Assembly (NCBI RefSeq): GCF_018143015.1
Contig: NC_054741.1
Location: forward strand, 53,273,048 to 53,337,047
Direction: 5' to 3'
Length of the DNA stretch: 64,000 bases
Origin: Lytechinus variegatus
Lineage: Eukaryota; Echinodermata; Echinoidea; Temnopleuroida; Toxopneustidae
A program made the translations under genes and the position numbers. Of the stretch, positions 15,801 through 64,000 are shown piece by piece; within the stretch, counting starts at the first letter, position 1; every line of letters starts with the position of its first letter. The notes under the pieces were generated by a model that made no database searches, was not told where the DNA came from, and saw only the letters and a list, made by a program, of their open reading frames with translations.

Positions 15801-15801
15801 A

Positions 15802-16393
15802 AGGTCAAGTCCATCCCAGAAAAATGTTGATTTGAATATTAAGAGAAAAATCAAACGAGCATAAAGCTGAAAATTTCATCCAAATCGGATGTAAAATAAG
15901 AAAGTTATGGCATTTCAAAGTTTCGCTTATTTTTCACAAAACAGTGATATGCACAACTCAGTGACATGAAAATGAGTCAATGATGTCCATCACTCACTAT
16001 TTCTTTTGTTCTCTATTGTTTGAATTATACAATATTTCAATTTTTACAGATTTGACAATAAGGACCAACTTGAAAGAACCATATAGTATTAAACAATGCT
16101 AATTCCACTTGTTCAGGGAGGAATTAATCGTTGTTTCACTTGACAATGAGGAGAAAATTAGAATATTTCATATAATAAAATACAAAAGAAATAGTGAGTG
16201 GATGACGTCATCAGTTTCCTCATTTGCATACCGACCATGATGTGCATATAACTGTTTTGTGAAATTAAGCAAAATTTTAAAATGTCATAACTTTCTTATT
16301 TTACATCCGATTTTGATGAAATTTTCAGTGATATGCTTGTTGGATTTTTCTCTTTTTATTCAAATTAACTTTTTGTTGGGATGGACTTGTCCT
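15802..16393. mobile_element. TTAA-flanked TIR element, non-autonomous
   Basis: The left end AGGTCAAGTCCATCCC and right end GGGATGGACTTGTCCT are inverted repeats. Similarity of the two arms continues for well over 100 bp (for example TCCGATTTTGATGAAATTTTCAG near 16310 pairs with CTGAAAATTTCATCCAAATCGGA near 15870). Both sides have TTAA (15798-15801 and 16394-16397). There is no transposase frame. Confidence 0.75.
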
Positions 16394-16397
16394 TTAA

Positions 16398-33600: not shown

Positions 33601-36600
33601 TATTGAGGTGCTTGAGATAGGCCAGGCCATCTTCATTTAAACCAAGTTGAAGAGCCAAACAGCTGAGGTCTAGCTCCACCAACTGAACTGCAGTCTAACA
33701 TACAGGAATGAATAAAGAATCTATGTCAATCATTTACAAACTAATACCACTAAAGGCCATCACACACTTTATAAATAGTCTATAATCCAACTTTGGAACT
33801 GATGAAATTTTGAATACTTTCTGAACATACAAACAAATATAATTGCCTTGTTTGAGGGTCACAATAACTACACAAATACTTTGGTCAACTGGAACACTTT
33901 AGTCTGGAGTATATGCCAAAATGTTTGAACTGAAAATCAATTACATATATATAATACATTTATATGATTTTTTTTAAATTCCATATAATGTACATTTAAA
34001 ATATTCAAGACCAGCAAACAAAGTGGAACCTTTCAAAGTTCTTGAAGTGGTATCTCTATGGATTGTAAATCTGACCTGGATTTCCATCGGAAGGATTACA
34101 ACCCTTGATCCTTTGTCATCTCTCTGTACTCTGGTCATTCTGTCCAGTTTCAGCTTGAGGAAATCATATGCTGCAGCTTGATCTGAACTTCGTTCATGTC
34201 TGCGATAGTAACCATAATGAAATAATTCTTCAGCCAAAAACCTCCAGAGAAAACTACACTTGCATCCTCATGAAAGTTTTCAGGTGACTTTCCACTTGGT
34301 ATAACCCTGAACTGTTTTATGGTGGATTTCTGGGGGGTGTTTCACAAAGAATCAACTGGTTTCCTATCTGAGAACAGTCTCGAGGTGTCCTGAGACTGGT
34401 TTCCATAAGGTTGACCTAAATTTTCAACCCCCTATTACACCAGAATCATAAGGAGTCTTGGGGCGCCCGAGACAGCTTTCTGTGTATTTCCACCAAATTA
34501 AGAACACTGTCAAAGATCAGATAGGTTTGGGAGAAGGCAAAGCTTGCATTCTGTTTGTTGTTTGGATAATTGTTCCACTAGTAGCGCATCAAGCAAATCT
34601 GTCTCGGAACAGTCTCAGGCAGGTTTGCATTTACACCAAATCCAAAGCAGTCTTGGGGAGCCCCAAGACCGGTCTCAGAACACGTCGAGAGGTGGTCCAA
34701 GATAGGTTTGCTCAGAAGGGGTCTCAGGTAGGTTTGTGCATTTACACCTGACTACAAATCTGCAAGAGACTGGTCTCGGGGCGCCCGAGACTACTACGGA
34801 AATTTGGTGTAACAGGGTCTTAGTGTGACCCCCAAGTCATGCTTTATTGCACACATAGTATCTAAGCGCAATCTCATTGATTGATATGCAGTAGTCAGCA
34901 TTTCCTTATCATGTGATTTGACCAAGAAGCGTTTTTACCGTATGCAGTTGGATCTTAATCTTTATGAAACACCCCCTTGGGCCCGTTGCATAAAACTTTT
35001 TACCTGAGAAAACTCTGGTTGTTTTTACCGGAGTTTTTGCCCTGTGTTAAAGTCAATGGCAGAAATCAGACTAACCTTATTTTTCAGTTTTTACCAGAGT
35101 TTTCTCAGGTTAAAAGTTTTATGCAACAGGCCCCTGGTCTCATAATCCAATATTGTCTACGGCCAATTTGACATTTGAGTTAAGTCAAGTCCATTTTCTC
35201 ACATAATGTAACTATTTGGTATAGGTAATCTATTTAGGCTTTGTCTAAATTCACAAAACAGCCAGGTAAACCACAGCAGATATAGTGGAATGTAGACCAC
35301 TCGAGAATCAGAACAAGTGGAATGCCTCTGGCCGTCTCACCTGCATCACGCGGTTCAATATAGCAGCAGTGCTGACTTTGAATACTACTCTAACTCGCAC
35401 AAGATGTTCAGTGATACATGGTTACTCTTATGTCCACTTTTTATGAACTAGACCAATAAACTTACAGAGATATGATGGTTATTCAACAAAAAACCCCAAC
35501 ATGGCCAAAGTTCATTGACCTTACATGACCTTTGACCTTAATCATGTGACCTGAAACTTGAATAGGATGTTCAGTGATACTTGATTACTCTTATGTACAA
35601 GTTTCATGAATCAGATCCATAAACTTTCAAAGTTATGATGGTAATTCAACAGATACACCCAATTCGGCCAAAGTTCATTGACCTTTGACCTTGGTCATGT
35701 GACCTGAAACGCGCACAGGATGTTCAGTGATACTTGATTACTCTAATGTCCAAGTTTATTTAACTAGACCAATAAACTTTCAAAGTTATGATGGTAATTC
35801 AACAGATACCCCCGATTCGGCCAAAGTTCATTGACCCTAAATGACCTTTGACCTTAATCATGAGACCCGAAACTTGCACAAAATTTTCAGTGATGCTTGA
35901 TTACTATTATGTCCAAGTTTCATGAATCAGATCCATAAACTTTCAAAGTTATGATGGGAATTCAACAGATATCCCCAATTCGGCCAACGTTCATTGACCC
36001 TAAATGACCTTTGACCTTGGTCATGTGACGTGAAACTCATGCAGGATGTTCAGTGATACTTGATTAACCTTATGTCCAAGTTTCATGAACTAGGTCCATA
36101 TATTTTCTAAGTTATGATGACATTTCAAAAACTTAACCTCAGGTTAAGATTTCGATGTTGAATCCTCCAACATGGTCTAAGTTCATTGACCCTAAATGAC
36201 CTTTGACCTTGGTCATGTGACATGAAACTCTAATAGGATCTTCAGTAATACTTGATTAACCTTATGGCCAAGTTTTATTAACTAGGTCCATATACTTTCT
36301 AAGTTATGACGTCATTTCAAAAACTTAACCTCAGGTTAAGATTTGATGTTGACGCCGCCGCCGCCGTCGGAAAAGCGGCGCCTATAGTCTCACTTTGCTT
36401 CGCAGGTGAGACAAAAAATGAAAATTTAGGGTTTTTTATGCAAAATACTCAGCTGTCAAGCGCTGAATATGCATGAAACTTACATTGTTGTACTGTGTAG
36501 CTTACATATTTCACTTTTAGCTCTGGTCGAGGTATTTAAATTAACAAGATCGTCCCCCTGAAATCCATATGAAAAAGGCAGAGTAAGCAAATAATCACTG

Positions 36601-45600: not shown

Positions 45601-47764
45601 TGGGGCATTTCATAAAGCTGTTATGCACAAACATACGCATGACTCTGCATGGCTTTCAGTTGCGCATGACTGGTGACCTACATATATTTTAGGGGTGGTA
45701 ACCCCAGTTTTTCAATGTTTTTAAAAAGACTGAATGCTCTGCAAGCCTATTAATACACAACAATTCGCTCGTCAACAACAAGAACTGCAAATGATAAAGG
45801 TCAGATTTTAGCTTCAGCTTAAAAAGGGAATCAAAATGATTGAGACTCTAAGTAGCACCAAAGAACAGTGGTGTGTACTGTCATTCGTAACTCATTAACA
45901 CCTCTGTGAGACACCACAGTGGATGTTGTTTTTGATCATTCTTTCACTTTACAATACGCTTTTTAGATCATATGACATTCCCTACTCTAATTGATTAGAT
46001 TTCTTGAAACATGAGACAAAGAGGCCCGAATTCACAAAGGTGGTTTTGAAACCCACAGTTGAATCCATGGTTTATGCAGATTTCCTATATAAATTACGCT
46101 TAATATAGCGCGTATCGGGCGCGTGTATGAAAAATGTCCAATGCTGATGCGCGCTTTTGTCAGTGCGCCAAATTGACGCCTGTTACCATGGTTAGATACA
46201 AAATTTTATTCATGACTCCACTCTTCAAACAGTGGACTCGTGAATAAAATAGCATATCTAACGATGGTAACAGGCATCAATTCGGCGCACTGTGACAAAA
46301 AGCTTGCTTAAGCATTGGACAATTTTTATACACGCCCCCGATACATGCTTTATTAAGCGTAATTTGTACAGGAAATCTGCATGAACCATGGATTCAACCA
46401 TGGGTTATCAAAACCACCTTTGTGAATTCGGGCCATAGGGACTTACGCTTCAGCAAGGTGTCTCAGCCGGAGGAGGAACGCCGGGTAAGGGTTGTAAGGT
46501 AGGTTTGGGTTTGTAAGTAGACCTTGGCAGAGAGAGAGCATGTGAGCGTTGACAAAGGCATCATCTAGATACTGGGTAACGATGTTCATCTCACTGGCTG
46601 CCATGTTATCTACAGGAGGGTTGTAGGTGTAGCGAGGCTTCGGAATGTCACTGGTCAACTGAAAAAAAAAAATAATGCATACTCCTCAAATTAATATAGG
46701 TTCACTGCAGCTCAGTGAAATGTATATGTAAAGGATTGGCATGCCACCGTAGGAAAATCGGCTCCTATGTCTTGGTTCTGCAATGCAGGTGAGACAAAAG
46801 ATAGCCCTGTGAATTTTTTATTTCGGTAATCCATACTTTGCTTTACTGTACTGCTATTTATAATAATTTACATAAGAATTTTGTGGAAGGCAATACTGAC
46901 ATTAAATCAATTTTTAAGCTATAGATTTTGGCTTGAGGAGGTAATTTAAAAGAACTACATGTATGAGGGAAATAATCCTTGATCAACTCCTCTTTTTCCC
47001 TTCTCCCCGATACTCACTGCTGTGATGATTGAATTGGAGTCTGATCGGTCTTCATCAATAGTACTCAGCTGATCTTGATGAAGTGTGTCTCTTTGGCTGG
47101 GTCCACGAGGCTCAGCAGTTGACGCTCTCGTGCTCCTGCTTTCAGAACGGCGTGGCGCTACGGTGACCATCGGCCGATAATGAGCCTATCCCAAGAAACC
47201 ACAACAGTGATAAAAAACATCTCTCTAATGCTTCTACGTACTCTACATATCTTTTTCTGAAATTATTATGCCTTCACAAGTTTTCTATGATATCAAAGAA
47301 AATGAAATTATGATTTAATCTTTCCACAATGTCTTTAGAGGTTGTGATTGCATGATTTACATATAAGAACAAATTATCAATATGATCTCTAGAGAAAATA
47401 TAATCAATCAATTAATCAATCAATCTTGATCAATTTATCAATCCTTTATTGCTGTAGTTAAATCAATTCCCCATTAGGAGATACAAGCAATTTTACGATA
47501 AGTTCTTACTGAATAGAGTAGGCCCAGATTATGTACATACTAACAATGCATATTACAAGGTATTAATTTCTTCTACATATACATGGAGGGCACAATTAAC
47601 ATGTCAAAGGTCAGACAAACCTTTTTGATACCCCTGAAACTTTGACCACGATGAAGACTAGACTGTCTCGACCGTGAAGCCATACTTGGTGGTCTTGTGC
47701 TAGTAGCTCCATCTCTAGGTCCAGACTGGGCCCTGGTAGGAGCACGAGAAGGGTTGCTTGACAT
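18669..47764 (-). CDS. Unrecognised conserved-looking 1272-aa protein, 28 coding exons
   Basis: Function unknown. Exons in reading order: 47764-47621, 47185-47018, 46658-46447, 45353-45128, 44061-43945, 43282-43204, 42810-42754, 42573-42449, 41229-41129, 40386-40120, 39584-39489, 38461-38344, 37370-37291, 34241-34076, 33694-33596, 31772-31677, 31065-30981, 30071-29998, 29403-29279, 28627-28402, 27297-27150, 26119-25953, 25404-25319, 24502-24436, 23220-23050, 21723-21517, 19675-19490, 18794-18669. All junctions keep phase and have GT/AG, with total length 3819 nt including the stop. Residues 1-104 are Ser/Arg/Pro-rich and disordered. The rest is mostly helical, with aromatic-rich segments (RYVEVHKYYMMHYNYIDH; LPYLELHEHYYIRGP) and an AAAKAKAKKG patch near 1155. 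No signal peptide or membrane span was seen. WASH-complex subunits, KIAA0825, VPS35L and HEM/CYFIP proteins were compared from memory and do not match. The start is the first ATG after an acceptor at 47841. Confidence 0.85.
19065..19456 (+). repeat. (ATC)n array in the last intron of the minus-strand gene
   Basis: Degenerate CATCATCAC/ACCATCATC repeats. On the gene's strand this is (GAT)n and begins about 35 bp after the donor at 19488-19489. The Ile/Thr and Met/Val frames here are repeat shadows. Confidence 0.85.
20381..21215. mobile_element. TIR element with GGGAAGGC(G/A)GGGTAAGTTG ends
   Basis: Left end GGGAAGGCAGGGTAAGTTG and right end CAACTTACCCCGCCTTCCC are inverted repeats. The subterminal word GGCTCAACTTGCCCC (or its complement) recurs near 20560, 20590, 20805 and 21175, always related to the TIR. 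There is no coding capacity. It lies in an intron of the minus-strand gene. Confidence 0.7.
21985..22290 (+). repeat. Minisatellite of ~15-17-bp ATTAGACCAA(G/C)TG units
   Basis: Around 18 degenerate units of the form (A)TTAGAC(C/G)AA.TG run head to tail. Unit spacing varies between about 14 and 20 bp. It is intronic and non-coding. Confidence 0.75.
24064..24330. mobile_element. MITE, CTTACAAAGAGTTATGATTGAT family, copy 1
   Basis: Left GGACCCCATCTTACAAAGAG and right CTCTTTGTAAGATGGG are inverted repeats, and the stem includes TGATTGATCTGATCA paired with TGATTGAATCAATCGC. Two relatives lie at 32596-32886 and 32889-33160. Confidence 0.65.
24998..25269. mobile_element. MITE, GGCCCGAATTCAC family, short copy
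   Basis: GGCCGAAATTCACAAATGTGG on the left pairs with the reverse complement of CCACCTTGGTGAATTCTGACC on the right. The centre has GAGTCCACTGTTTGAAGAGTG followed by its partner. The full-length relative is at 46023-46434. Confidence 0.65.
25490..25794. mobile_element. MITE with ~60-bp TIRs, GGCCCGTATTCTGA family
   Basis: The left arm GGCCCGTATTCTGATAGCAG and the next 40 bp (ACTCAGGTTTAAAGTTGTG) pair with the right arm ending in CTTCAGAATACGGGCC. It sits in an intron of the minus-strand gene just upstream of exon 22 in genomic order. Non-coding. Confidence 0.75.
26664..26865. mobile_element. PIF/Harbinger-like MITE
   Basis: Both ends have GG(G)GG(C/T)GTTGCAAGAAA as inverted repeats, and both flanks are TAA (26661-26663 and 26866-26868). 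A 3-bp TAA/TTA duplication is characteristic of the PIF/Harbinger superfamily. GCGATCAATTGCAA and GCGATTGATTGCAA lie subterminally. A short open frame over it is a shadow. Confidence 0.65.
27647..28272. mobile_element. MITE (GGGTGTGGTTTCACAAAG ends) interrupted by a piggyBac-like MITE
   Basis: The left end GGGTGTGGTTTCACAAAG and following AGTGCGACTTAG pair with the right end CTAAATCACACTTAACACTTTGTGAAACACCC. Between them lies the complete TTAA-flanked element 27820-28228, so the outer element is older. Confidence 0.65.
27820..28228. mobile_element. TTAA-flanked piggyBac-like MITE, copy 2
   Basis: It begins CCCTAATTAGACTGGG and ends CCCAGTCTTCTTAAGG, with TTAA on both sides (27816-27819 and 28229-28232). 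Its sequence is the reverse complement of copy 1 at 11640-12393, with about 340 bp of the interior missing. Confidence 0.7.
31080..31530 (+). repeat. (GAT)n array upstream of exon 17 of the minus-strand gene
   Basis: Degenerate GATGATGAT repeats. On the gene's strand they read (ATC)n and end some 20-60 bp before the acceptor at 31066-31067, so they occupy the usual branch-point and pyrimidine zone. The 193-aa minus-strand frame across it is a shadow. Confidence 0.8.
32185..32475 (+). mobile_element. tRNA-derived SINE
   Basis: The head has pol III box A (TGGCCCAGTGG, 32197-32207) and box B (GGTTCGATTCC, 32241-32251) at tRNA-like spacing. An unrelated body follows with CACTCGACCCAGGTGAGGTG, then GGCGCTATATAAATGCC and an (ATT)n tail. 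The cloverleaf is not complete, so it is not a working tRNA gene. It lies within an intron of the minus-strand gene, in the opposite sense. Confidence 0.8.
32596..32886. mobile_element. MITE, CTTACAAAGAGTTATGATTGAT family, copy 2
   Basis: The ends GGGCCCCGTCTTATGAAGAG and CTTTGAAAGACAGAGCCC are imperfect inverted repeats, with TTGTGATTGATCCTATCAA at the left stem. The neighbouring copy 3 begins 3 bp further on. Confidence 0.65.
32889..33160. mobile_element. MITE, CTTACAAAGAGTTATGATTGAT family, copy 3
   Basis: The left end GCGCCCATTTTACAAACAGT and right end CTTTGAAAGACGGAACCC are inverted repeats. The body is parallel to copy 2 (AATTCATGTTTGTTCAAAAG near the start, TTCCTGTAGA near 33075). Copies 2 and 3 are in tandem. 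Confidence 0.65.
34331..34977. mobile_element. MITE (GGGGTGTTTCA ends) interrupted by another TIR element
   Basis: Left GGGGGGTGTTTCACAAAGA and right TCTTTATGAAACACCCCC are inverted repeats. The complete element 34430-34817 lies inside it, so this is the older of the two. Confidence 0.55.
34430..34817. mobile_element. TIR element with CCCTATTACACCA ends
   Basis: Left CCCTATTACACCA and right TGGTGTAACAGGG are inverted repeats. Just inside, GGGGCGCCCGAGAC occurs at both ends, and GTCTCGG/CCGAGAC words recur through the body. Non-coding. Confidence 0.65.
34979..35134. mobile_element. Short MITE with ~45-bp TIRs
   Basis: Left GGGCCCGTTGCATAAAACTT and right AAGTTTTATGCAACAGGCCC pair. The next part, ACCTGAGAAAACTCTGG, also pairs with CCAGAGTTTTCTCAGGT, giving a long hairpin with a short loop. 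Confidence 0.75.
35526..35538 (-). promoter_or_regulatory. Perfect DR1 nuclear-receptor motif, unit 1
   Basis: TGACCT-T-TGACCT, read on the minus strand as AGGTCA-A-AGGTCA. It fits the DR1 consensus used by HNF4, RXR and COUP-TF type receptors. Occupancy is unknown. Confidence 0.5.
35679..35691 (-). promoter_or_regulatory. Perfect DR1 nuclear-receptor motif, unit 2
   Basis: Same 13-bp sequence as at 35526. A GGTCATGTGACC palindrome follows at about 35693. Confidence 0.5.
35842..35854 (-). promoter_or_regulatory. Perfect DR1 nuclear-receptor motif, unit 3
   Basis: Same 13-bp sequence, exactly 163 bp after the unit-2 site. Confidence 0.5.
36005..36017 (-). promoter_or_regulatory. Perfect DR1 nuclear-receptor motif, unit 4
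   Basis: Same 13-bp sequence, exactly 163 bp after the unit-3 site. Confidence 0.5.
36197..36209 (-). promoter_or_regulatory. Perfect DR1 nuclear-receptor motif, unit 5
   Basis: Same 13-bp sequence, 192 bp after the unit-4 site because that unit has an added AACTTAACCTCAGGTTAAG segment. Confidence 0.5.
36616..36696. repeat. Perfect 17-bp inverted repeat
   Basis: GGCAAACTATCACTTAC (36616-36632) and its exact reverse complement (36680-36696), about 47 bp apart, in an intron of the minus-strand gene. Confidence 0.7.
37916..38060. mobile_element. MITE with GTG(G/A)GTGTTTCA ends
   Basis: Left GTGGGTGTTTCAAAAAGCTG then TTCGTAAAGTTA pairs with right TAACTTTACGAATAGC then TTTATGAAACACTCAC. The element at 10058-10247 has a similar layout. 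A further GTTTCATGAAA...GATGAAACACTCC pair follows at about 38065-38220. Confidence 0.7.
39650..39790. repeat. Possible SINE fragment with (ATA)n tail
   Basis: An (ATA)n run at 39653-39670 is followed by TTACCCAGGGTAGCCTCTTCAG and a GCTAGGCTACC phrase. It resembles the 3' part of short interspersed elements, but no pol III boxes are seen. Confidence 0.3.
40699..40866. mobile_element. MITE with TTTCA(C/T)(A/G)AAAGTTGTCAGCACT ends
   Basis: GGGTGTTTCACAAAAGTTGT then CAGCACT on the left pairs with AGTGCTGACAACTTTCATGA then AACGGTCC on the right. It lies in an intron. Confidence 0.65.
41670..41755. repeat. SINE-like 3' tail fragment
   Basis: GTAAGCGCTTTGGGCCTAAT followed by AAAAGCGCAGTACTATAAATAA resembles the tail of tRNA-derived SINEs. 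A (TCTA)n run lies nearby at 41519-41541. Confidence 0.35.
41930..42437. repeat. Minisatellite of ~33-bp GGAACCATTCCTT units
   Basis: Around 14 degenerate units of the type GATGGACTAGGAACCATTCCTTGAATGCTT run through the intron after exon 8 of the minus-strand gene, beginning about 12 bp past its donor (42447-42448). Short frames here come from the repeat. Confidence 0.8.
44255..44400 (-). mobile_element. SINE 3'-body fragment
   Basis: On the minus strand, CCTTCAGCAATTAATTTACC, then CCCAGGTGAA and GGGCAGCTCGAGCT align in order with the body of the SINE at 32270-32385. The pol III head is absent. Confidence 0.55.
44600..45105 (+). repeat. (GATGAT/GATTAT)n array in intron 4 of the minus-strand gene
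   Basis: About 500 bp of degenerate GATGATGATTAT repeat. On the gene's strand it starts about 20 bp after the exon-4 donor (45126-45127). The His/Asn-, Ile- and Met-rich frames of up to 198 codons across it are shadows. Confidence 0.9.
46023..46434. mobile_element. Near-perfect ~200-bp-arm hairpin MITE, GGCCCGAATTCAC family
   Basis: It begins GGCCCGAATTCACAAAGGTGG and ends with the reverse complement, and the arms pair almost throughout, with the centre near 46230 (ACTCTTCAAACAGTGGACT). It ends only 11 bp from the exon-3 donor of the minus-strand gene. A shorter relative is at 24998-25269. Confidence 0.8.
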
Positions 47765-49454: not shown

Positions 49455-51300
49455 CAAAAAATCCTCCAATCCGAATAATCCGATCATATCAACCGGTAAC
49501 CCCGGATGGGGGGGGGGGGGGGATGGGGCGGTTACAACTTACAGGTAAACGTGAATGACCGCCACTTGGGATTTATTTCCCGGATTTTTTTAAATTTCTT
49601 TTAGTGACATTTGACTTTTTCCATTACATGCACTAGTCGAAATTCTAGTAGAAATAACAAGATTGTAGTAATAAGCACGCAAGGTAATAAGTCAAGATGC
49701 CTTGACTCGACTGCAGAGTCAGACAATTAAAAAATGTTCAATTAGGCCTATTATATAGGCCTATAGGGCCAAAATGGCAAGCATATTGTAGTGAATTGTA
49801 GTAATATGACAAGATCTAAATTATGATTAATTTATAGTTGGCATGACAATATGTTTGTATAGTAGTATCTAGACAGTATATAGATTTTTATCTAATTATT
49901 ACCTATTTATTTTATTTCATTTTATTTATAATTTATCAGTATCATTATTGTTTTCTTTGGTGCAAGACCACTTTCAATAGGGCATTATATGTCTAAATTT
50001 TACAAATCTTTTTTTGTAATTATTGTCTTGTTGCTGATTGTTATTAGAAACCATATTTATGTATTTATCATTATGACAATATGACCAACAGCAAAACAAG
50101 ACGATGATTATAGGGCGCGTGTACGTGCCTCCGATGCAACTTACATAAGGCGCAATCAAAAGGGGAAATGAACGGTGTCGAAACCCGAAGGTGTAACATG
50201 ATTAAAATGGGTGATTTAACAGTGTTCGAGCCCCGGATTCAGATTGAGCCAAAACTTGAGGGGCCGTGTGTTCAGGCCTATAAGCTGCGAGCGACTTATC
50301 ACATGAGTCCAATTTTGTGATAGATTTTAACGATCCCAATTCACCCCTTTTCTTCTTTCGTGGTCACGATTTATATTGCATTAATTATTTTTTTTTGGGG
50401 GGGGGGGGGGGTACGCCAATACCAGGAGTCAAATGTTTGAAGGGATGCTCATTTTTTAGTACTGGCATGCACGGGCGCCGATTTCCCGAGATGATTCTTT
50501 TTGTCTTTGAATATGGCAACCTCAATACTAATGCGAGCTACCATGGGTGTCAATCACGGGGGGGGGGGGGGGTGATGGGGGGGATATATCCCCCAATATT
50601 TCGAGTGGGGGGATGGCCTGTATTATCATCCCCCCAATAATTTAGGGTAGAAAAATTATAATAATGATGATGAAAAAATTAAAAGTTTGATCATAATGAT
50701 TATAGTATGTCATCAATCAGTGTTTCCCTCGCAGTTTGTGTATATTGTTATTAAATAAAACATTCCTTTTCAGGACTATTAAACAGATGGGTGGAGGTTC
50801 AAGATGAAAAAGAATGAAATGTTTATGTATATGATATTTTTAACACAAGACATAAGAGGACCCTAACGAAAAACAACTTTTGTTGATAGGATGTTTCATC
50901 CCACCAGTGGTGAATAAATTAATTTTGATTAATCAATTATTTCAAAAGGGTGGAAAAATAAACTGGAGTAAAAGGGTGGCAAGATAAATTGTCTAAGGAA
51001 TTACCATATAGCCATTACAGTAATAGCTCCATGGAATGACGGTAAGCCCGATGGCGCACGAGAAGCCACACAGTTTGTAATTTGTGCTAGTCTTAATTGG
51101 TCCGAATCTGCATTTTATCATCATGCATTAAGAAGAAAAAAGATATTGCCAGTCGGGTTAGATTTAAAGGAGACATACGAAGAAAAATCACGAAAGTGAT
51201 AATTATGGGCGAATTATATATGGATGGAAAGGTCTTGTCTTCTTTAACACAAATACGTCACTAAAAAGTTTTATAGATATCGGGGAAATGCAAGAAATGT
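49455..51300. other. Intergenic DNA between divergent genes
   Basis: No gene model is supported. It holds several G-runs of 9 or more (near 49507, 50397, 50559, 50577) and a C/G-run repeat (50559-50640) with CCCCCAATA words. A short minus-strand frame at 49974-50159 has no protein character. Confidence 0.45.
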
Positions 51301-51368
51301 AATTATAAAAGGCCCTTCTCAGCCCCCCAGACGAACGATATTTCGCAGTCGAAAACGGTCGACAATAA

Positions 51369-51376
51369 TGACGTCA
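51369..51376. promoter_or_regulatory. Perfect palindromic CRE in the putative THAP-gene promoter
   Basis: TGACGTCA, the full CREB/ATF site. A second TGACGTCG lies near 51487. The position is about 300 bp upstream of a likely non-coding first exon that ends at 51738. Confidence 0.45.
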
Positions 51377-51639
51377 CACAATAAACCGCTCTTCATCTCT
51401 CTCTCCATACTGCATTGATTCCCCTAGTTTGCTGCCTTTTGCTGGATCTGTATTTATTGTCCAAATTTACCATTTTTCGTGTAATGTGACGTCGGATTCC
51501 TGTTTTTGAACACTAATTGTGTTACTGCACACTTTTTAATTGAATTGTCAACTTGTAAAGTGTGATTTTGACCTCTGGATTTGGAAGTCTTCGTTGTGTT
51601 GCTTCACAAGTTCACTAGTACAGTACAGATTCCAGTGGT

Positions 51640-51738
51640 GTATGTTGAAAAACCCCAAGCTGTAGCGGGCTATGCGCTGCTGGCTGCCGGGGTACTGCGG
51701 GGGAGCCGATGCTGCACGCTACGCTGTTTGATTACAAG
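51640..51738 (+). other. Candidate non-coding first exon of the THAP gene
   Basis: A GC-richer stretch ends in ATTACAAG followed by donor GTAAGC (51739). If it joins the acceptor at 55016, the ATG at 51709-51711 would open a short upstream frame in a different phase from the main protein. The start of the exon is not defined. Confidence 0.35.
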
Positions 51739-51937
51739 GTAAGCATGTTTGGAATTTGTACTTGTTCTGACGATGCATTCAGGTCAGGTGACTGATACAG
51801 ATCTAGTTTGTAAGATTTTATTGACTCTAGATCTAAAATAATTTTTGAATCATGCATTGATTATTTTTTATTAGCAAGCAGGCATTGAAATTAAGTTTTA
51901 AACACTGTCAGACTGTCTACAACTACTACAGAGTACA

Positions 51938-51972
51938 GTATGTTCGTTGGGGTCTGACCCCAACGAACATAC
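51938..51972. repeat. Perfect 17-bp-arm palindrome with 1-nt spacer
   Basis: Positions 51938-51954 and 51956-51972 are exact reverse complements (TTCGTTGGGGTC / GACCCCAACGAA core). It sits at the left edge of the foldback at 51973-52230. Confidence 0.85.
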
Positions 51973-52230
51973 CTGTAGGTGGAAGGTCTATCGTGAGTCG
52001 TGACACAAAATCCTGTCATCGAGGCACGAACATGACAAACTGGACCCTCAAAAATAGGAAAAGTTAGACCTCCAAATCCAATGAGTCCATGTCGCAGTCC
52101 ATTTTGTTTTCAATTTTGAATTAAGAAGGAGAACGAGTGATACAGAACTTTTTTTTGATGGTCCAGTTTGTACCTTGATGTCAGGATTGATTCTGTGTCG
52201 CAATAGACCTTCATCCATGTAATTTATATT
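51973..52230. repeat. Second foldback element, related to the one at 4.2-4.75 kb
   Basis: The left arm (GGTCTATCGTGAGTCGTGAC, then CCTGTCATCGAGG and AACTGGACC) is an imperfect reverse complement of the right arm (GGTCCAGTTTGTACCTTGAT, then GTCAGGATTG and AGACCTTCATCCATG). The right arm aligns with the 4.6-kb foldback (CCAGTCTGTGCCCAGATGTC, AGACCATCATCCATATAAT). No coding frame. Confidence 0.6.
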
Positions 52231-52654
52231 TTCCCCTTTCATTTGGGATGCTATTGCTATTGCGACCCCATTTTTCCATTTTAGGAGTATCCTCGCGAAA
52301 CGGGCCGGAGCTCCATGGGGTCCATGTTGTCGAATGAACTAAGAATTAACTTTATTAGACACGCTTTGCTAGATTTAGACTCTATTTTTAATCAGCAGAT
52401 TTTTAGATTTCTAACGTAATTTAAACCGACTAGCATGTCCATGGGTCATGGCTTGGTTAGAGTGAAAAATCTGCCGTTCCAGAGGAATTTTTAAATTACA
52501 GTTTCTGATTTAGCATTCTTGTGAAGAGAATGCCACGCATCAACGAAGCTTGACAAAATTTCAGGGGGATGTATCCTGATTTCTGACCGAAATAAGAGTG
52601 GTTTTTATTCTTCCAGAGACTGAGTGCTGAAGATAAATGCACTCATTGTAGTAA

Positions 52655-53646
52655 CCAGGGGCCCGTTTCTCAACACCGTCATAAGTCTAAATCCTTGACT
52701 AAATCGGAGATAGTGAGCTACTTGTCCGCTAACCATTTCATGAAGCCCTCTTTGCCAAGTTCGGGTACAACAACCTCACTAAATATTTATGACAACTCCG
52801 AACCTGTCACAACTTCTTTCTTAGTGACATAGTGGCATCGCGTGGGTAGACAATGACGTGCAAAGTTGCCTAGAAATTTGAAAATTATAATCTTACGTAA
52901 TCAATAATAGCGGTTGAAATTACATCACGAAACAAGTGGGATAATACATTCAATGATAATTGTAATGCAAAGAAATTATTAAAACTGTTGGTAAAACACC
53001 ACAAAATCATTCATTTTGAGAGAGTAAAATAATTTATTCAATAAAAAATTGTACCACGTCAGGCCATCCTTAATTGAACTCATATTCGTCGTTTTTAGAC
53101 CCCTCTAATTTATGCATGGAATTCGTCAAATCATATATTTTGGCATCAAATGTTTAAAAAGTTTATGTTAAACTATATTTTGATGATGTTTGAAATCATA
53201 AAATACCTTATAATTATAATCATTTTACAAAGAAAACCATTATGGTTTACTTTCGTAAATTATTAAAATTGAACAACAACGTCCATAAGTGATTTTTTAG
53301 TCATGAAATTAATTATTCATGATTTAATTTTCTCAGCAATTGTTTGCTCCAGTCTTGATGGCCTGATGTGTACGATGCATAATTTACCTGTGCTATTATT
53401 TTGAAAAGATGTATTTCTCAATTCATCACAATATTTGCAATTTTGTTATAATTTTTCTTTTTGATGAAAATTATGCTATTTTGTGATGAAGGCTACGTCT
53501 CAGCTGCGCTTTTTACCGATAGTATCAATATCAAGGTATTCTAGTTAGGAAGCCTTTGAGAAACAGGTTTAGTAAGCTTGGAACCATTTCTGTGGTTGGT
53601 GGATAAAGATATTAACTTGTCCATGTGTTGAGAATTGGGCCCCTGG
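52655..53646. mobile_element. ~1-kb TIR element with CCAGGGGCCC ends
   Basis: Left CCAGGGGCCCGTTTCTCAAC and the reverse complement of the right end (CCAGGGGCCCAATTCTCAAC) match closely. The interior is AT-rich and non-coding. The stretch directly after it (GTTTCATGAAATGG, then GTTTCACAAAGC) may be a second, shorter element. Confidence 0.6.
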
Positions 53647-53699
53647 GTCCTGTTTCATGAAATGGTCTTTGGTTGAACCACTCTACGTAAGAACGAGAT

Positions 53700-55016
53700 A
53701 TCGCTTAACTGTTTCACAAAGCTGATTTGGGCGATACAAAGAATTAGTCCTTGGAAAGACACCTTCAGACATACATGATCTTCTTTGTGCCAAGTTATTT
53801 TTTATATGGGGGCTGTCATCAATTTCAGGTCATCTAGCACAGCGAGACAACCCCAAAATGGATGTCAGTCTAACTTCTTGGTAATCTAGCTAGGCCCAAA
53901 TTTTTTTTATATATATAGCCTACAGTTAGTATGCTTTCTTTTATTTTCTCACATTTTCTCCCTCTTCCTTCAACCCCCCCCCTTCCAGTTTTATTTCATC
54001 CAAACTTGAAATATCGAAATGTGCGGCAATCTCTGTGACCCCTCATGATTTCACATTACGTGACAATTTTTTAAAAATTATGTATGGTAAGGAAAACGTG
54101 TATGAATTTCAGCAAAAAAAAATGTGGTGCAAAACTAAGATGGTACTAAACGTGCAAATTCATTTATTTATTTGTATTTCATTTTCATTTTGCTGTGATT
54201 ATTTTTAATCAATGAAAATAATTGGTTTTGTGCTAACTTGAGATGATGAATAAAACCCAAAAATCTGCGGTAACAAAATAGCTAATTGAATTTGAAATAT
54301 AGATTAGGCCTATAGTTTACAAATCCAACACAAGCATTACAAATAGATGAGTTAATTGTAACTATAAAAGTAATAGTTTTGGAAAGTATGAAAAGGCGCA
54401 TTCTAAATCTTAGGGTACATGTATTTCCACTTGAACCAAAAACAGAGTAATGCCTTTAATACAGTCAGCCTATATACATGTAACTTAAACTTCATTAACT
54501 TGGTCATAAAAAGTGTCCTACATGTATGTGCATGTATATGTAAACTGGTTTTAAAAGCTTGGTGCAGTAGAAAATTGTGCTGCTATAATTTATACAGGAG
54601 TTGCAAGATGCTAAAAAAGAAGGGGGTTTGGGATGGTTTCCCAGTACTTCTCTTTACTATTCAATTTACATTTCTACATTTGGAATTTTATCATTTTGTA
54701 AAATTGATTTCAGTCAAACTATAAGTTATTGTTCATGTGCTGTAACATTAGCAGACTACATGTAGCTACATGTAATTGTACAATGTATGTACACAGTACA
54801 TACACTCTGTAGTGTACCCTCAGCTTAAACTAAACTTCTTTGTTCTCTTACATTTTTGTGAGTTAAACAGGACTGTGATGGTTAAATTTTAATTGACAAT
54901 GACCTTTTTGGCTTTTCAGGGTTTGTTTTTCTTCATGGAATACATCCCCCGCATCTTGTGAATTATGTGTAGCCCTGTAGACTTTTACCCCCCCTTTATT
55001 TTTGTCATTCATGTAG
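53700..55016 (+). other. Non-coding DNA before the THAP coding exon
   Basis: AT-rich sequence, probably intron 1 of the THAP gene. A 101-codon frame at 54419-54724 has no recognisable domain. Confidence 0.45.
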
Positions 55017-55029
55017 GTGTGCTTTGGAG

Positions 55030-58000
55030 ATGGAATCATCAGAAAATGGCAACCACGGCAAACCTAAAGAAGGCAAAAAGAAGAGGAAAACTGGTAGCCG
55101 GTGCATCGTATATGGATGCGGGAATACCATATATCAGGGTTTCGCTATGCACCAAATGCCAGGAAAGATGCCACTAGGGCAAGAACGATTTGATAGCATT
55201 CAGAAACAGTGGATTGCTTTCATTGGGAGAAAAAGAAAATTTGACTATAAAGATGCAAAACAATATGCAAAAATATTTGTATGTAGTGGCCACTTCCTGC
55301 TTGAAGACTACGAGCCAACACAAGTAGAAATGTATAGGAGAAGACTAAGGACACGACCACCATCGTTAAAGGCTGGTTCTTCTCCTTCTTTGGATATTGC
55401 TGTACAGCCATTCCCATCCGACTGGTTCTTGCCTTCACCATCTTCACTTCTGTCTTTGGGATCAATACCACCTTCAGGCACATCAACAGCGGATAGTCCA
55501 TGCTCTGAGGTCGCCAGTGCCAGCTGTTCAGTACCACCTACACCTGCCATTAATGCACCACCTTCAAGTGATTTCCAAAGTGCGTCTCTCTTGGCCCTTG
55601 GTCCTGATAAGCCAAAGCGAAGCCGCAAGGAATCCATATACATCAGAAAAAGAGTAAGACTGATTTTTAAGACTTTTGATTTACAGAACAACACGTATGT
55701 AGATGCCATCTTGAAACTAAAAAAAATTACATATATTCATTTACAATTGTGCTTACTTGGACATGCTCATGTGGTCAGCAAGTACATGCGAATTCATCTA
55801 TTTTTTACTTGTCTGACAGACCTGTAGGTAACATCTTTTTCCCCTTACTCTGATACAATAATCCAAAATATGAAGGAAATATGTGTATGTAAACATGTAC
55901 ATGTATCTTCCTGAAAATGGCTATGACAAAATTATTTTTACAGGAATTCAGACCAAATTCAACGGTGTGGCAGATTTTTACTGCTCTTTGGCCATTTGAA
56001 TGGTGTCATTATTGATCCATGATGTACCGGTACCTGCATGTATGTACAAATGTTTAATAAGGAAGATTGACGGGATCAGACAATTGAGATCGTATGTCTG
56101 GATGTTTAGAGTTTTCTCCTGTTCATTTAGTTTTCACCACTCTTAATTAGATCAGCCACAATAAACTTCATGAATTGTATAGAATAAATATAAACTACAT
56201 GTACATTTTTTAAATTATTTTTTTGGCACCTCCGTTTTTTCATTATGGAAATGAAAATTTAAAAATTAACATTTTTTTCTTGTGTCTGCTTCAGGAAGCT
56301 GATGCACTGTTCATTGAATATGCCAGACAAGCAGAGGAAGAACAAGCCCAAGACATTCTTGATCGCTCAAAAGGAGAACAGTGTGGCGTCAGAGTAAGTA
56401 TTGTACAGGTTATCATTGCATATCATATGAAGGTCAAGTTCAGATTTGTAAAGATTGCCCACTTTACAAGAACCGAGGTCTTCACATGTACATATATGTA
56501 CAGCATACAATTCCTTTGATTACAGTTTTATCTTAATACTGTTATATGAGAAATTGGTACTCAGTGATAGAACACCTGCCTCATGAAGAGGATACTGTGG
56601 GTTTTGTCATAGCTGATTGACTATACCAATGACTTGAAAAATACTGGATACTTGCTTCATTCTTGTCAAGTGCTTAGCATACATGTATTAGGAGAGTACT
56701 TATTCAGGGCTCGCTGGGAGAACAGCTCTTCAGAGCTGAAAATGGCTACCCTAGCTGAATCAAATGATTTATTTTTATATTACAAGAAATACAGACACAA
56801 ATGTTTTAAAACCAAGCTTATGTAATAACTTTTGATTACCAGTACTAGCATTGGTGAAATCAAGCAGAACAATTTTTTTGCAACTCATGATTAATTTCCA
56901 TGAAATTTTTTTCATTTCAATAGACTGCTGATCGCAAAGTTGGAATTCGTGTACAGAAACGTTCCTGCAAAGTTCATGTAAAGCCGAAGACCATGTCAAA
57001 AGGTAATAATATTAACTTACCCGTATCGGTATCATATTCAAAAGAACAATAAATTACAGCATTTTTTTATTCTGTCTTTATTATAGGTATAACATGAATG
57101 TATCATTTTATTTGTAATATGTAGGTTCTTTCAATGTCCAGAAAGAGTGGTAATAATAGATATAAGTCGATTGTGCCTCTGAGTTTGTTAGATATTCAGA
57201 TTAATGAATATAATTTTTTGTGATCCGTTGAGTTTGAACTACCAATAAATGTAATATAAATAACCACTGGAATAATAATAATAGTAGTACTACTTTTGAC
57301 AAAAAACCTGAATCGTAATAATGTCCTTATTCATATACCATGAGGCCAGCATATTCCTATACATGGATCTCCATAGATGTTTCTTTTTAGCTTGTAATAT
57401 TTGATAATAATTTGATGGTTTATGTCTTCTTCAGGAACTCAAGTAAACATGACACAGAAGACACATAGTCAGCATCCAGTAGGCCTTCAGATTTCAGATG
57501 CTGGTACTCAAACTGAGACAACTAATACACAGGACAAGGATGAGGATATGCTGGATGAAGAACCTGATGAGGATCCAGACTTTGAGATAGGTTCAGATTC
57601 GGATGAGAAGAAAGATCCAACCTACAAGCCAGGCACATCCAAAAGAAATAGAAGCTCATCAGATGAGGAAACATACAAAGTGTAAGCAGCTTTATAACTG
57701 GAATTCTAAATTATGTTAAATTGAAGAAAGATGTCCCTTCCATTAGCAGTTATTGTAACTGTCTACTCTGTTTAATACTAGAAATACCTAGTGTAATTAT
57801 AATTTTGAAAGTGAATTCTTGACACCTGAAAAAAGTTTAATGTCAATGCAATTGAGTTGGCATGTACATCCATTTCTTCCATCCAACACTGTTGGTTGCA
57901 GCCCATTTTTGGCTTGTTTGACTGTCTTTCATTTTTTCTGTCTGTAAATAGAAAAATGTCAGACATAAAAGTTTCAATTGTGTTTATGTATGCATAAAGG

Positions 58001-61000
58001 TGTGCGATAAGTGTATGACAAGATTTGGAGTTCACCAGTTTAAATGTTGTGGGTCATAGATTCTTTTGTTTTCTCAGTATCACTTCATGCATGTAGATAG
58101 GACCTGTTAGCCAAAAGTTACTATTATAGTAACACTGCCATCCAATATTTTATATTTATAATGCTAAAAAGCCAATCAGAATCAATAATTTCAAAGAATT
58201 TCCTGTAATAGTGACTTTCCTGCAATGGACCCCTATACAAATCAATTTTGGACTTTGTTCGTGTGGGAGTGACATGCTCAGATTTTGTGAGAATTCAGTA
58301 TTTCACATTATATATAATTTATAACATATTTTTTTATCATGACAAGATAAAACCTATGTACAGTCAAGTTCCATCTACATGATGTAGGCACTAGTACAGT
58401 ATCTTCACTTTTTTTCTTTTCTTTGCAGGACCAAATCAGATGATGTACTGAAAGAAGAAAAGTACATAGTATTTGAATCCAACCTGTTTGCCTTGTTCAA
58501 CAGTTGCTTCAGTTGTCTTTCTAGTGATGTGCAGGTTGAGAAGATATGCCCTAGATCTTTTGGCTCACAGATTAAGATCAGGCAAACATGTCTGAAGTGC
58601 TGTAGGATTAAGGAGTGGCACAGTCAACCAAGAGTTGGGAATGTTTCTGCTGGAAATTTGCTGTTGTCTGCAGCCATTTTGTACGGTGGAGCCAGTCCAA
58701 CCAAAGTATTGCGAGTATTCCAGCATATGAATTTGAAGGCAGTCACAAACAACACCTTCCTGGAATATCAATCTACGTACTTACAGCCAGCCATCATTAG
58801 GGTGTATGAACGAGAGCAAAGGTCTCTCCTCAGAGAGTCAAGAGGGGAAAAACTGATCTTGGGAGGAGACGGCCGTGCTGACTCACCAGGCCATTCTGCC
58901 AAATATGGCAGCTATGCCCTTATGGACATGAAAACAAAGAAGATCGTTGATGTGGAGCTTGTGCAGGTAATATGCCAATAACAAGAAGTTTATATATGTA
59001 TTAGTGTTACAATACCGGTACTCATGTATTAAAGCTTACCCAGGGATAATCTCTAATTCACGCAGAGAGGGCAAATGAGCATATTCAATGTATTGTATAT
59101 GGGGTTATTTTGCTAGAAATTGGATGCTTAAATGTAATCTATATTCAGTAATGCCTCTTAATGTCAAGAAAACATTTGTTGTAATTGTAATTACTTCATG
59201 TCAAAATAAACTATATATTTTTTTGTTCAATCAAATGAAATATTCATCAGCCAGTAAAAGAAAAACTTGAAATTGAATTGACCAAAGTTTGTTTTTCCAA
59301 TATTTTTAGAGCAATGAGGTGACAAGTTCAAACGCCATGGAGAAAGAAGGTTTGGCAAGGGGATTGGCGAAGCTTTATGGAATGGGAGTGGAGGTAGGAA
59401 CCCTCATCACAGATCGACATGCCTCGGTGGCTAAGTGGTTACGGGAGACATACCCAGAGATTGATCACCGTTATGATGTTTGGCATATCGCAAAAGGTAA
59501 GTTGTTGACATCCATGCCAATTATTGATAAAAAAGTTTTTCACAAGGATTATATGTGTATATGATAATAATGACAGTGGTAATGATAACAGTATGCAACA
59601 TTTATACAGTGCTGATATGTCTAAGCTGTAACTGTAACTATTATCCCAGCTTTATCACAGCATTGCTGGATCTACTAAAGAAATGGGATTATAATGCATG
59701 AGTTTGAAATTGAAGCATTTCTCTGATTGGACCATTATATGATGCATATAAGAAAGCACATGTTTAAATCAGAAAATGTTGTGTTTACTCAATAGTGAAA
59801 ATTTTTGAAGTTACAGATTGATATTTTAGAATAATGACCACTATAAATGCATTAATTTACAGGAGTGAGGAAGAAAATCACAGCTGTATCAAAGCTGAAG
59901 AATTGCGAGGTAGCTCACATGTGGAAGCAGTCGATGATCACCCACATATACTGGTCTGCTGCATCTACTCCGGATGGGGATGGGAATATGATGGTATCGA
60001 AATACAAGTCTGTCTTCAACCACATGAGAGATGTGCATGTTCATGAAGGCGTGTATCCTAAGTGCGGCCATGATGATGAATACCCTCCACGTGAATGGAT
60101 GAGAGAAGGTAAGTGAAGCTTCAGTATGGGGTGGGAGAAGGGGTTGAAACTTATACATCTCACAAAGTTACCAGTATTAAATTTGGAGCAAATCATTGAA
60201 ATTTGGAAGTGAGATATAATTTTGTTACAGTGATGTCAACATCGTATCCAAGGTTATTTTTTCAGTGTTCTAAGTCTAACAGATTTTTGTGGATCAAGGT
60301 CATTAAATTAGGGAGATTCACTTGTACCTAATAATTTAGAGTATTTATGTTATGAATTCTCCTCCAAATGTCATAAATGTTTTATTACTCAATTGTTATG
60401 TCATGTAGGAACAAAAGTCTATGAGAAGTTGTCTGAAGAGCTGCTGAAAACTCGCCTGCTGAATGACATGAAGAAAATGTCACCTCTCGCACAAACCAGT
60501 TCGGTGGAATCCTTCCATAGCGTCCTCCTGTACTGGTGTCCAAAGATGCTGGCATACTCTTATGCTGGGATGAAATGCAGGTGAGATAATATTCCTTCAG
60601 CTGTCACCAGATCCTAAACCTACTTCAAATACCAGAGTCCTTTTATTCTTTGCTTTTATTTTTTTTCTATTTTTCTCCCATTCTCTTTTTATTTTTTCCT
60701 GTAGAATACATAAATGCTCCTCAAGATTGATTTTTTTTAAACATGTTAAAAATGAATTCAAGAAAATATTCATACAAATAAGGAATCAGGAGACACTGTT
60801 TATTTGATACTGTTTCAAAAATATTTCTCTATAAAGACTTCTGTTTATTTTATTTTTTTTACAGACTGTATCTTGCAGCTCTGCACTGGAACGAGAATTC
60901 AGACCGCTCTCAAGCAACAAAGTCTGATGGGTCACCAATCTACCGTGTCACCTATCAGAAAGCCAAAGAAGGTCGTCAAACTGTCAGCAAGGTGCTAACT

Positions 61001-61541
61001 GCATGTACTTTTGGTATGTTTATTTATTAATGACTAATGAATCAAAGTAGTTATGTCTCATGTAGGAAATACTGTTCAAAAGATTTTATGGAAGTATTTA
61101 ATTGTATCAATCTGTGTAATTTTTTTTTTTGTGAATTACTACACATCTTTTGTTTTGTCTAACACTGCATTTCATATGCACATCCCACAGTGTTTCAAAG
61201 TCTGAAGGAAGGTAATTAAACATGGCACTATGCATAGTCTAGTATCACAGAAGGAATATCTTTACCTAGAGCCATATAAATAAATGCAAAGAAGACATTG
61301 TCACCACTTTATCAGTATTGTCATCTAACCAGAAAACTGTTCTACAATTTTCATTCCCAATATAGAGTATGTGAATGCTTTGATGGTGGAGACAGTACGA
61401 CTCGTTTCTGGAAAGCAGAAACTCCGCTCTGAAATGGAAGAGCTGCAAAACAAACCGCCACTGTCATCGAAATATGAGAGGCCAGACAGGGAGGAGGCTA
61501 TTCAGAAGGCACTAGCACATCATCGATTTGCCATGGAATAG
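55030..61541 (+). CDS. THAP-domain protein with a Kolobok-like D(2)H/DDE transposase core
   Basis: Predicted 838-aa DNA-binding protein, a transposase or a host protein made from one. Exons: 55030-55653, 56295-56393, 56924-57002, 57435-57681, 58429-58966, 59310-59496, 59863-60108, 60409-60580, 60865-61013, 61366-61541. Every junction is GT/AG and keeps phase. Order of parts: KKKRK tract (16-20); THAP finger with C25, C30, C85, H88, W61 and the HFLLEDYEP box; Ser/Pro linker; short acidic helix (209-241); a DEDMLDEEPDEDPDFE acidic run; CxxC pairs C376/C379 and C404/C407; RNase H-like core with D497 (GGDGRADSPGHSAKY), D564 (ITDRH), D585-x2-H588 (YDVWHIAK) and E707 (SSVESFHS). The D(2)H motif before the last E is known from Kolobok-type transposases. 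THAP9/P-element was considered but the core motifs differ. The start is the first ATG after the acceptor at 55016. Whether it still transposes is unknown. Confidence 0.88.
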
Positions 61542-62905
61542 AAGGAATAGAATCGACTGTGTTTAGAATACTATTTCCTTTATTACTGAAAGTTTCACTT
61601 GTCTTTTATCACTGCTGGAACCATTAGTTTGTTTGAAGCATCAGTTAGTGTTGTATGAAATGTTGAAAAGAAAAATCCCTGATCAAGCTAATTAGATTGA
61701 CTAGCTCTGTTTATATTTTTCTCGACAGTTATTTTGCTTTTCCCAAGTCCAACTATGTCATTCATCCTCAGTTGTAGTCTTGATTTGTATGCATTTGTAA
61801 ATATTAATAAGTGTGGCAATGTCATGATAATGTGATAGGCAGGACAAGACAACTGAAAGATATATTCTAAATTCTATTTCAGGGGTATTACAGAGATATC
61901 CGTTGATTCTATTTCTTTTCGATAGTAATTTGACTTGGGGTGTCATCTTGTTACTGTGAGCAAAGGTTAAAAAAAAAATTCACCAATCTACATTGTACTT
62001 GCACAATAGTACATTGTATTTTCTCTCTACCATCAAAGATCAAACTGTGACCCATAATGGTCAGTAAAAGTAACTTTAGAACCATGGTTTATGCTGATTC
62101 TATGCACTGAATTACCGGAGCTTATTAGCTATACAAACAGGTATTTCTCATGCAGATGTTTTTCATATTACACATCAGTCTAAGCACATTCATATGCATG
62201 AAATTCAGTAGGGAAATCACATTTGTTGAGCAATGCCCGTGTTAGCTGGAAAAGTCTGCTGTGAATAGGTATACTTTTTCCTGTGGTGTCTTTGTTAGCT
62301 GTATAATGTATATACATGATTTTTTTTTTTCAATTTAAATGCCAGCACAGGTCAATTAGTTTGTGTGGGCTAGACTGGCCCATACCGGCTTCTATTGTTG
62401 TGAACCTACATACTTTTCAGCATATGAACAAATCTTTTGGCACTGAAAAAAATTCCTGTCTCCTTACATCTAACTTAGTGTAACAGCATAGATATGGCAG
62501 CCTCTGCCTGTACTATTATGATAAAGCTTGACCAAACTGTATGATTTGTTGATAAAAAATGTGTTTTCAATTTTTTGTTATTTTGATGATGTGAATATCC
62601 GTGGGAGTACTTCTGCCAAAGTAATAGAATATACAAGTAGCTGTATGTAAGAAAAGTGTAGGCAGTCTGTTGTGAATAATACAACATTGCTTGATAATAT
62701 CAGGAGGAAGTACTGGCTAGAAGCAAGGTGTTACATTGCATTAAAAACAGTTTGTGTTGTCAAACAAATGGAATGGTCCTTGTTTTGATAAAATTTGTAA
62801 CCACATCTACACTTTGTTGAATTGGCAAGACTGCTAAATTTTGATTGGTATGTAAAAGAGCACTTTGATGGAGGCAGTTGAATAAATGATTTCATATCAA
62901 AGTTA
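61542..62905 (+). other. 3' UTR of the THAP gene
   Basis: No coding exon follows the TAG at 61539-61541. The sequence is AT-rich up to a clear AATAAA at 62881-62886. Confidence 0.45.
62881..62886 (+). terminator. Candidate polyadenylation signal of the THAP gene
   Basis: AATAAA about 1.3 kb after the stop, with T-rich sequence 30-60 bp downstream. Use is inferred. Confidence 0.4.
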
Positions 62906-63779
62906 TTAGTATTTATTTTTGTATTTATGTATAGTATTTTTTTTTTTTGTTCACAAGTACATTTATCCTTTCACAATACATTTCATACATTCATATCCGT
63001 TCTACTAGTGAGTTTGATAGTATGATAAAGCTTTCTATTCTCTGCAGATATATTCTGAAAATGTCATATTTGAAAAAAAATATACCCCAATGTTAACTGG
63101 CAATTTGAAAAAATAGGTCATCGTGTATTTATCATGTTATAAATGGGATAGCAGTGATATGTTGATTTCTGTCCTTGATTGCGCAGTGGATTACAAGGAT
63201 CATTGCACTGTAAGTTTGGTCAGGTTATTTGGTGAGCTTCATTTATCATTTTACGAATCCACACCTTTATGCTCATGAAACTTGACCCATCTTACATGGT
63301 CTCATTTTAAAGCCTACCCCCCGTCCCTATTTTTTTTTTACTCTGAGCCTGAATGTGCCTATGTGTTGGAAGAAAGTTACATGTAGTATTGATTGTACAG
63401 TCAACCTTGCAGAAGTTAAATGGTTGCCATTGAATGTTTTTAAAGTCATCCCACTGATCTTAAACCTTCACAGGTGGAAAAAATTAAGTCCAAACTTTTT
63501 ATTTAATTCCTGGATTTGACTTAGGCAAGGTTGACATGCAATAACACAGGTCAGCTTTGGTTGATGCTTTCAGTAGGTGCTGGTTTGGTGTGTGATCATG
63601 TAGAAACTAACAAGGGGCCACAACACAAAGCTTAGCAATGATCATAGATCATCTTTCTACAATTGATTGTATTGACTACAATGTAGATTAATAGCTAACC
63701 TTTGCGTTATGGGACCATGGTGTGCAAGGGGCAGCAATACAAGAAGATTTTGCAAAGGGCCAATTACCAATGAATGTGT

Positions 63780-64000
63780 ATCACTAGTGTACCTACGGGG
63801 GGGGGGGGGGGGGGGGTTGCCCCCCTGACGAGTCACAACCCACACAAAAGACATCCCTGCCCCCCCCCCCCTCCTGACGAGCTTGAAGACCCTTATTTTT
63901 TTGTTTGTCAAATTTCTTCTGGTAGGATTGAAAAGCTTATTTGATTGAAGACCTTTTTTTTTGGCTTGTAAATTTTTTTCTGGTACAGTTGAAGACCTTG
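63780..64000. repeat. Dispersed repeat with long G- and C-runs (runs off the window)
   Basis: TAGTGTACCTACGGGGG begins a G-run of about 18, then GCCCCCCTGACGAG occurs, a C-run of about 13 follows, and CTCCTGACGAGCTTGAAGAC repeats. GATTGAAGACC and GTTGAAGACC recur. It is similar in layout to 2205-2425. Its right end is outside the window. Confidence 0.5.

Follow-up and report, generated by a model that had tools for sequence, protein, structure and literature searches.

A ten-exon THAP transposase gene of Lytechinus variegatus very probably belongs to a recently mobile Kol0-type Kolobok transposon that also carries a KolX-like gene

THAP fingers occur in P elements, and the P element and THAP9 both combine a THAP finger with an RNase-H-type core; the target-site duplication of the P element is 8 bp. 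Kolobok transposons have RR..YY termini, and within this group a transposase encoded together with a second protein, KolX, is the mark of the Kol0 lineage, as described by Kojima and Bao (PMC9587614). KolX resembles the cytoplasmic ballast of the P2X7 receptor, which arose via fusion with KolX according to the same authors (PMC9587614). Kolobok-1_XT, of the Kol0 lineage, has a DDE transposase with a DxxH motif and a zinc-finger-like insert, TTAA duplications, RR..YY termini and a KolX similar to the P2X7 ballast (PMC9587614). The XKol elements of Xenopus, 6.8-13.9 kb long at full length, have TTAA sites, AG termini such as AGGAGAAGGAAAGGCT, a THAP domain, and DDE and H2CH motifs (PMC6004289). 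The element described here resembles both in these respects and is not described in the available text of either paper.

The window analyzed, a 64,000-nucleotide stretch of contig C2 (C2:53273048-53337047), contains a gene that a preliminary description had read as a ten-exon open frame of 838 amino acids. We reproduced this frame by joining the exons between 55030 and 61541: the resulting 2517 nt encode 838 amino acids plus a stop, with zero internal stops, and all nine introns are GT/AG. The exons are as follows.

55030..55653, plus strand: exon 1, THAP finger C25, C30, C85, H88
56295..56393, plus strand: exon 2, counterpart in the C5 relative
56924..57002, plus strand: exon 3, counterpart in the C5 relative
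57435..57681, plus strand: exon 4, acidic linker; 6-nt in-frame deletion in the C18 copy
58429..58966, plus strand: exon 5, PF20700 core, D497
59310..59496, plus strand: exon 6, D564, H582, D585-x2-H588
59863..60108, plus strand: exon 7, C606 and H619 of the H2CH finger-like insert
60409..60580, plus strand: exon 8, E707; missing in the C4 copy
60865..61013, plus strand: exon 9, counterpart in the C5 relative
61366..61541, plus strand: exon 10 with stop, counterpart in the C5 relative

Each of the ten exons has a counterpart in a relative on contig C5 (L042), where GT/AG letters resembling splice sites stand at the nine corresponding places (junctions judged by eye), so the exon chain is more than a product of chance, and we regard the 838-aa chain as confirmed as a real, predicted gene. 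Blastn matched the window gene to the C5 gene in no more than three stretches, which lie over exons 2, 5, and 8. The two transposases share 60% protein identity over 755 aligned codons with a dN of 0.34, while the NG86 method returned -1 for dS, which we took as saturated.

Pfam searches of the 838-aa protein returned PF20700 (Mutator-like transposase, 5e-11) and PF05485 (THAP, 2.5e-7, 31.8 bits against a cut-off of 23.9), along with PF10551 (MULE) at 0.0019, under its own cut-off. The zinc ligands that had been claimed for this protein are present, and the catalytic residues lie at the positions given for them. C25, C30, C85, and H88 make up the C2CH ligand set of a THAP finger, and D497, D564, and E707 constitute a predicted catalytic DDE triad in which D585-x2-H588 supplies the DxxH found between the second D and the E in Kolobok transposases; H582, H588, C606, and H619 similarly correspond to the putative Kolobok zinc-finger motif between DxxH and E. 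D497, D564, D585, H588, H582, C606, and H619 were identical in all five further relatives examined, and E707 was kept in four, the fifth (L050) ending at a stop before this position. The C-terminal AVPTIF box of the THAP domain, a motif defined in PMC6004289, has diverged to SSPSLD in this transposase; it is strictly kept in just 17 of 38 and 12 of 24 Xenopus proteins (PMC6004289). The transposase had zero sequence matches in PDB up to E = 10. AlphaFold was run on five relatives, and the fold model of a relative was poor (mean pLDDT 49.8); its top Foldseek rows were the ISCth4, Hermes, and P-element transposases with TM-scores of ~0.17-0.29, which hints weakly at a DDE-transposase fold for the core.

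Searching the genome (869.6 Mb, 33 contigs) with window positions 54000-62500 identified two further copies, one on C18 and one, in four pieces, on C4. With the three copies aligned to their ends, the unit has the following features.

51164..51167: TTAA on the left side of the target-site duplication, paired with window-extended 68793-68796 on the right
51168..51184, plus strand: AGGAGACATACGAAGAA, the perfect 17-bp inverted repeat at the left terminus
51168..64000, plus strand: Kolobok element, left 12,833 bp
51168 to window-extended 68792 (C2:53341839): whole C2 element, 17,625 bp, running past the window end
54000..54417: part of an interspersed repeat inside the element (38 of 47 matches fall in query 1-419, 69-88% identity)
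63147..64000: beginning of the C2-only stretch of ~2.03 kb, which C18 and C4 lack

The identity of the C18 and C4 copies to C2 begins exactly at 51164 and stops at window-extended 68796 for C18 and 68803 for C4, the extra letters in C4 matching by chance. At both ends of all three copies (17,625 bp in C2, 15,626 bp in C18, and 15,257 bp in C4), TTAA is followed inwards by AGGAGACATACGAAGAA, the 17-bp length of the perfect inverted repeat having been measured on the C18 copy. The insertions are located at C2:53324214, C18:1675799-1691424, and C4:1445981. The ends thus read AGGAG..CTCCT inside duplicated TTAA sites, and all three copies have the TTAA duplication and the AG..CT form of the 5'-RR / YY-3' termini of Kolobok. 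The genome contains six occurrences of TTAA plus the first 16 end bases, all at the ends of these three copies, and none of the reversed control. The genome-wide search for near-identical copies and TTAA-flanked inverted repeats that the preliminary description had proposed returned three copies with shared 17-bp ends, and its view of the protein as an intact, Kolobok-like D(2)H THAP transposase, accompanied by TTAA and inverted repeats, is borne out by residues, ends, and duplications. The interior of the element also contains an inverted-repeat pair (window 52650-53651; 47 bp, 72% complementary), possibly a short, old transposon that the element carries with it.

The right end of the element and a second gene lie beyond the window and were missed in the preliminary description for this reason. 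The second gene is located 3' of the transposase gene and convergent with it, and encodes a KolX-like protein of 227 amino acids.

Window-extended 66384-68456 (C2:53339431-53341503): whole KolX-like gene, split into three exons and read from the minus strand
Window-extended 68456-68170, 67363-67136, and 66552-66384, minus strand: exons of the KolX-like gene

The KolX-like protein has the same sequence in all three copies. It matched P2RX7_C (PF20478) at 1.5e-15 in Pfam and four P2X7 sequences in PDB by phmmer (1.0e-4 to 1.5e-4), with unrelated rows starting at 0.14. The P2X7-ballast fold expected of a Kol0 KolX is therefore predicted for a gene present in 3/3 copies. These matches liken the protein to the ballast domain of the P2X7 receptor; unlike the receptor, it stands alone as a protein and lacks the channel part. 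The unit thus carries two convergent multi-exon genes, one for a THAP-DDE transposase and one for a P2X7-ballast (KolX-like) protein. To look for a third gene, we scanned eight additional open frames, of which six belong to the C18 copy, one to the C2-only stretch, and one, at 50284-50637, lies outside the element; they returned three weak Pfam rows, all under cut-off.

The flanks of the three copies are unrelated to one another. We joined 250 bp of each flank at one TTAA and used the products as probes for empty sites. Other matches spanned the junction in 38 of 39 cases for the C2 probe (among the best 40 of 2017 candidates), in 12 of 15 for the C18 probe, five of whose matches are neighbouring C18 sequence at 94-99%, and in 38 of 38 for the C4 probe (among the best 40 of 215 candidates). 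Empty sites for all three copies are uninterrupted repeat copies, and direct reading of four C2-type empty sites showed just one TTAA where the flanks meet. These data show that a unit with precise ends inserted at TTAA three times. The ten-exon gene thus very probably encodes the transposase of a Kolobok DNA transposon of Kol0 type that was mobile recently, even when weighed against the small number of copies (three, one of them broken), the diverged AVPTIF box, and the poor fold model of the relative.

The three copies are 99.6-99.9% identical over ungapped columns, with substitutions at 23/15570 columns between C2 and C18, 44/14923 between C2 and C4, and 57/14930 between C18 and C4; private changes number 5 in C2, 18 in C18, and 39 in C4. 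The transposase frames of the C2 and C18 copies are open, the C18 protein having 836 amino acids owing to the 6-nt in-frame deletion and its gene carrying one silent change relative to C2. The C4 transposase is broken, having lost exon 8 along with the beginning of exon 9. As for the C2-only stretch, 854 of its bases fall within the window; among the matches listed, the first ~630 have no other match in the genome and the remainder is a dispersed repeat. Its edges, inspected by eye, show neither a repeat nor a duplication, and loss in a parent of C18 and C4 and insertion in C2 are equally likely.

Whether the element still works is a closer question, and we give only slightly less than even weight to a Kolobok that moved recently and is now silent, its open frames being relics of youth that yield no active protein. 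Such an element would fit with there being only three copies, one internally deleted, and with the diverged AVPTIF box. Against it, two of the three copies keep both genes open together with all catalytic residues and perfect ends, and no KolX variant exists among the three.

The preliminary description had left open whether this was a recent element or a host gene; the first branch is supported by the copies, ends, TTAA duplications, and empty sites, and the second did not hold. A domesticated gene whose transposase frame is kept for host use could account for the intact frame, the nine introns, and the coding constraint relative to C5. It would also fit the placement of variable sites: only 5 of 62 variable three-way columns are coding compared to 2968 of 14901 columns overall (p = 0.009), a count that includes two sites (60920-60921) adjoining the C4 deletion that may be alignment noise. 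However, selection for working copies would produce the same constraint with no need for host benefit. The locus is not a single copy lacking element ends, and the host-gene reading fails because the near-identical copies have unrelated flanks, TTAA duplications, shared ends, and empty sites. Many identical copies had been named in advance as evidence against domestication; copies were found, just three in number, and they bear element ends. Equal-scoring copies are also seen in other families of this genome. We therefore rejected domestication as very improbable.

It is just as improbable that the unit is a P-element-like or piggyBac-like transposon rather than a Kolobok. THAP fingers and an RNase-H-type core are common to the P element, THAP9, and the transposase studied here, and TTAA is also used by piggyBac (PMC9587614). 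However, the TTAA duplication and AG..CT termini fit the RR..YY rule of Kolobok (PMC9587614), the core is Mutator-like with DxxH by Pfam, and a KolX partner gene is present. The studied copies have TTAA rather than an 8-bp duplication, and we rejected the P-element reading on ends, copies, and empty sites. Segmental duplication of the locus, with no transposition, would yield three long near-identical copies but is refuted by the empty sites, the joined flanks matching uninterrupted repeats, and by identity that ends at TTAA at either edge of each copy, the copies being bounded by inverted repeats, leaving it the least credible reading of all.

Within Kolobok, the KolobokP lineage is distinguished by long direct repeats, about 450 or 660 bp, at its termini. 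When the first 1500 bp of the C18 copy were compared with its last 1500 bp, nothing emerged beyond the 17-bp inverted repeat and matches of at most 35 bases with E above 0.02, and assignment to KolobokP was rejected for lack of such repeats. The element differs from Kol0 in being a 15-18 kb unit that carries older repeats and in having a multi-exon transposase and KolX, the strand and introns of Kol0 KolX being unstated in the available text of PMC9587614. It differs from XKol in its ten exons, XKol having been taken as single long ORFs (PMC6004289), and in its diverged AVPTIF box. We consider it a new family of a known kind that Repbase may already list.

Relatives extend well beyond the three copies. 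Searching the genome with transposase exon 5 gave 35 stretches (31 places), and with P2RX7_C 27 stretches (20 places). A P2RX7_C place lay within 20 kb of 11 of the 31 transposase places, with 0.03 pairs expected by chance, and in 11/11 pairs it was 3' of the transposase on the opposite strand. The paired loci represent about six families by score and identity and are not independent. Nine P2RX7_C places and 20 transposase places were partnerless, the latter including the three studied copies, whose short KolX exons escaped the family search; for this reason the eleven pairs are a lower bound. These eleven further convergent loci suggest that the pairing may be kept by selection. A KolX is also present in the C5 relative; it is split into three pieces, shares 57% identity over 220 codons, retains 9/9 cysteines, and is preceded by the sequence TTAAAGGAGAAG. 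Equal scores were found within five groups of two or three exon 5 matches, as expected of other young families. The 20-base end with at most three mismatches occurred 285 + 252 times compared to 81 + 68 for the control, indicating that relatives with similar ends are common. By eye, at least two facing end pairs within 4 kb stood among the matches listed, at C1:40.172 Mb and C4:7.514 Mb, and these are possible short non-autonomous elements. Pattern searches for relatives gave one match in viral contigs, none confirmed, and none in plasmids.

Several other repeats were observed. Two adjacent exon 5-related pieces at C7:19110079-19111426, with protein identities of 85% and 60% and a stop in one of them, are, judged from their sequence, older broken relatives of the family. 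A tandem trio of THAP matches occupies a single 498-aa open frame at C2:61377906-61378922 (minus strand), and dozens of equal-scoring THAP fragments (profile positions 32-87, 78-aa open frame), spread over many contigs (e.g. C1:25119743, C2:53412104), are evidently a high-copy repeat bearing part of the THAP domain. The window also contains long palindromes at 46023-46434 (86% self-complementary), 4302-4738 (78%), and 15797-16398 (75%), perhaps fold-back elements, the last with relatives near the C18 (83%) and C4 (79%) copies, and a tandem array of ~163-bp units at 35392-36352 with related sequence reversed at 631-905. Rfam returned nothing for the 64-kb window at the gathering threshold.

For the Kol0-type Kolobok that we favour, the THAP finger, perhaps together with KolX, would recognise the element ends, and the RNase-H-type core (D497, D564, E707), with its DxxH and finger-like insert, would excise the element and join it to TTAA; copy number could rise through repair of the donor gap from a sister or homologue. 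We tentatively put forward, at somewhat below even likelihood, that the convergent transposase and KolX genes together make up a single transposition machine that depends on KolX, which might for instance be a zinc scaffold holding the ends or guiding the complex. This proposal draws on the nine cysteines kept in the C5 relative and the lack of variation among the three copies.

A many-intron THAP transposase therefore need not imply a host gene. KolX has been proposed as the origin of the P2X7 ballast (PMC9587614), and its role can be assayed in this Kol0-type element, which moved recently and has two open genes. If KolX is indeed a needed partner, the P2X7 ballast would descend from a transposition factor, and a young family with both genes intact would be a natural test case.
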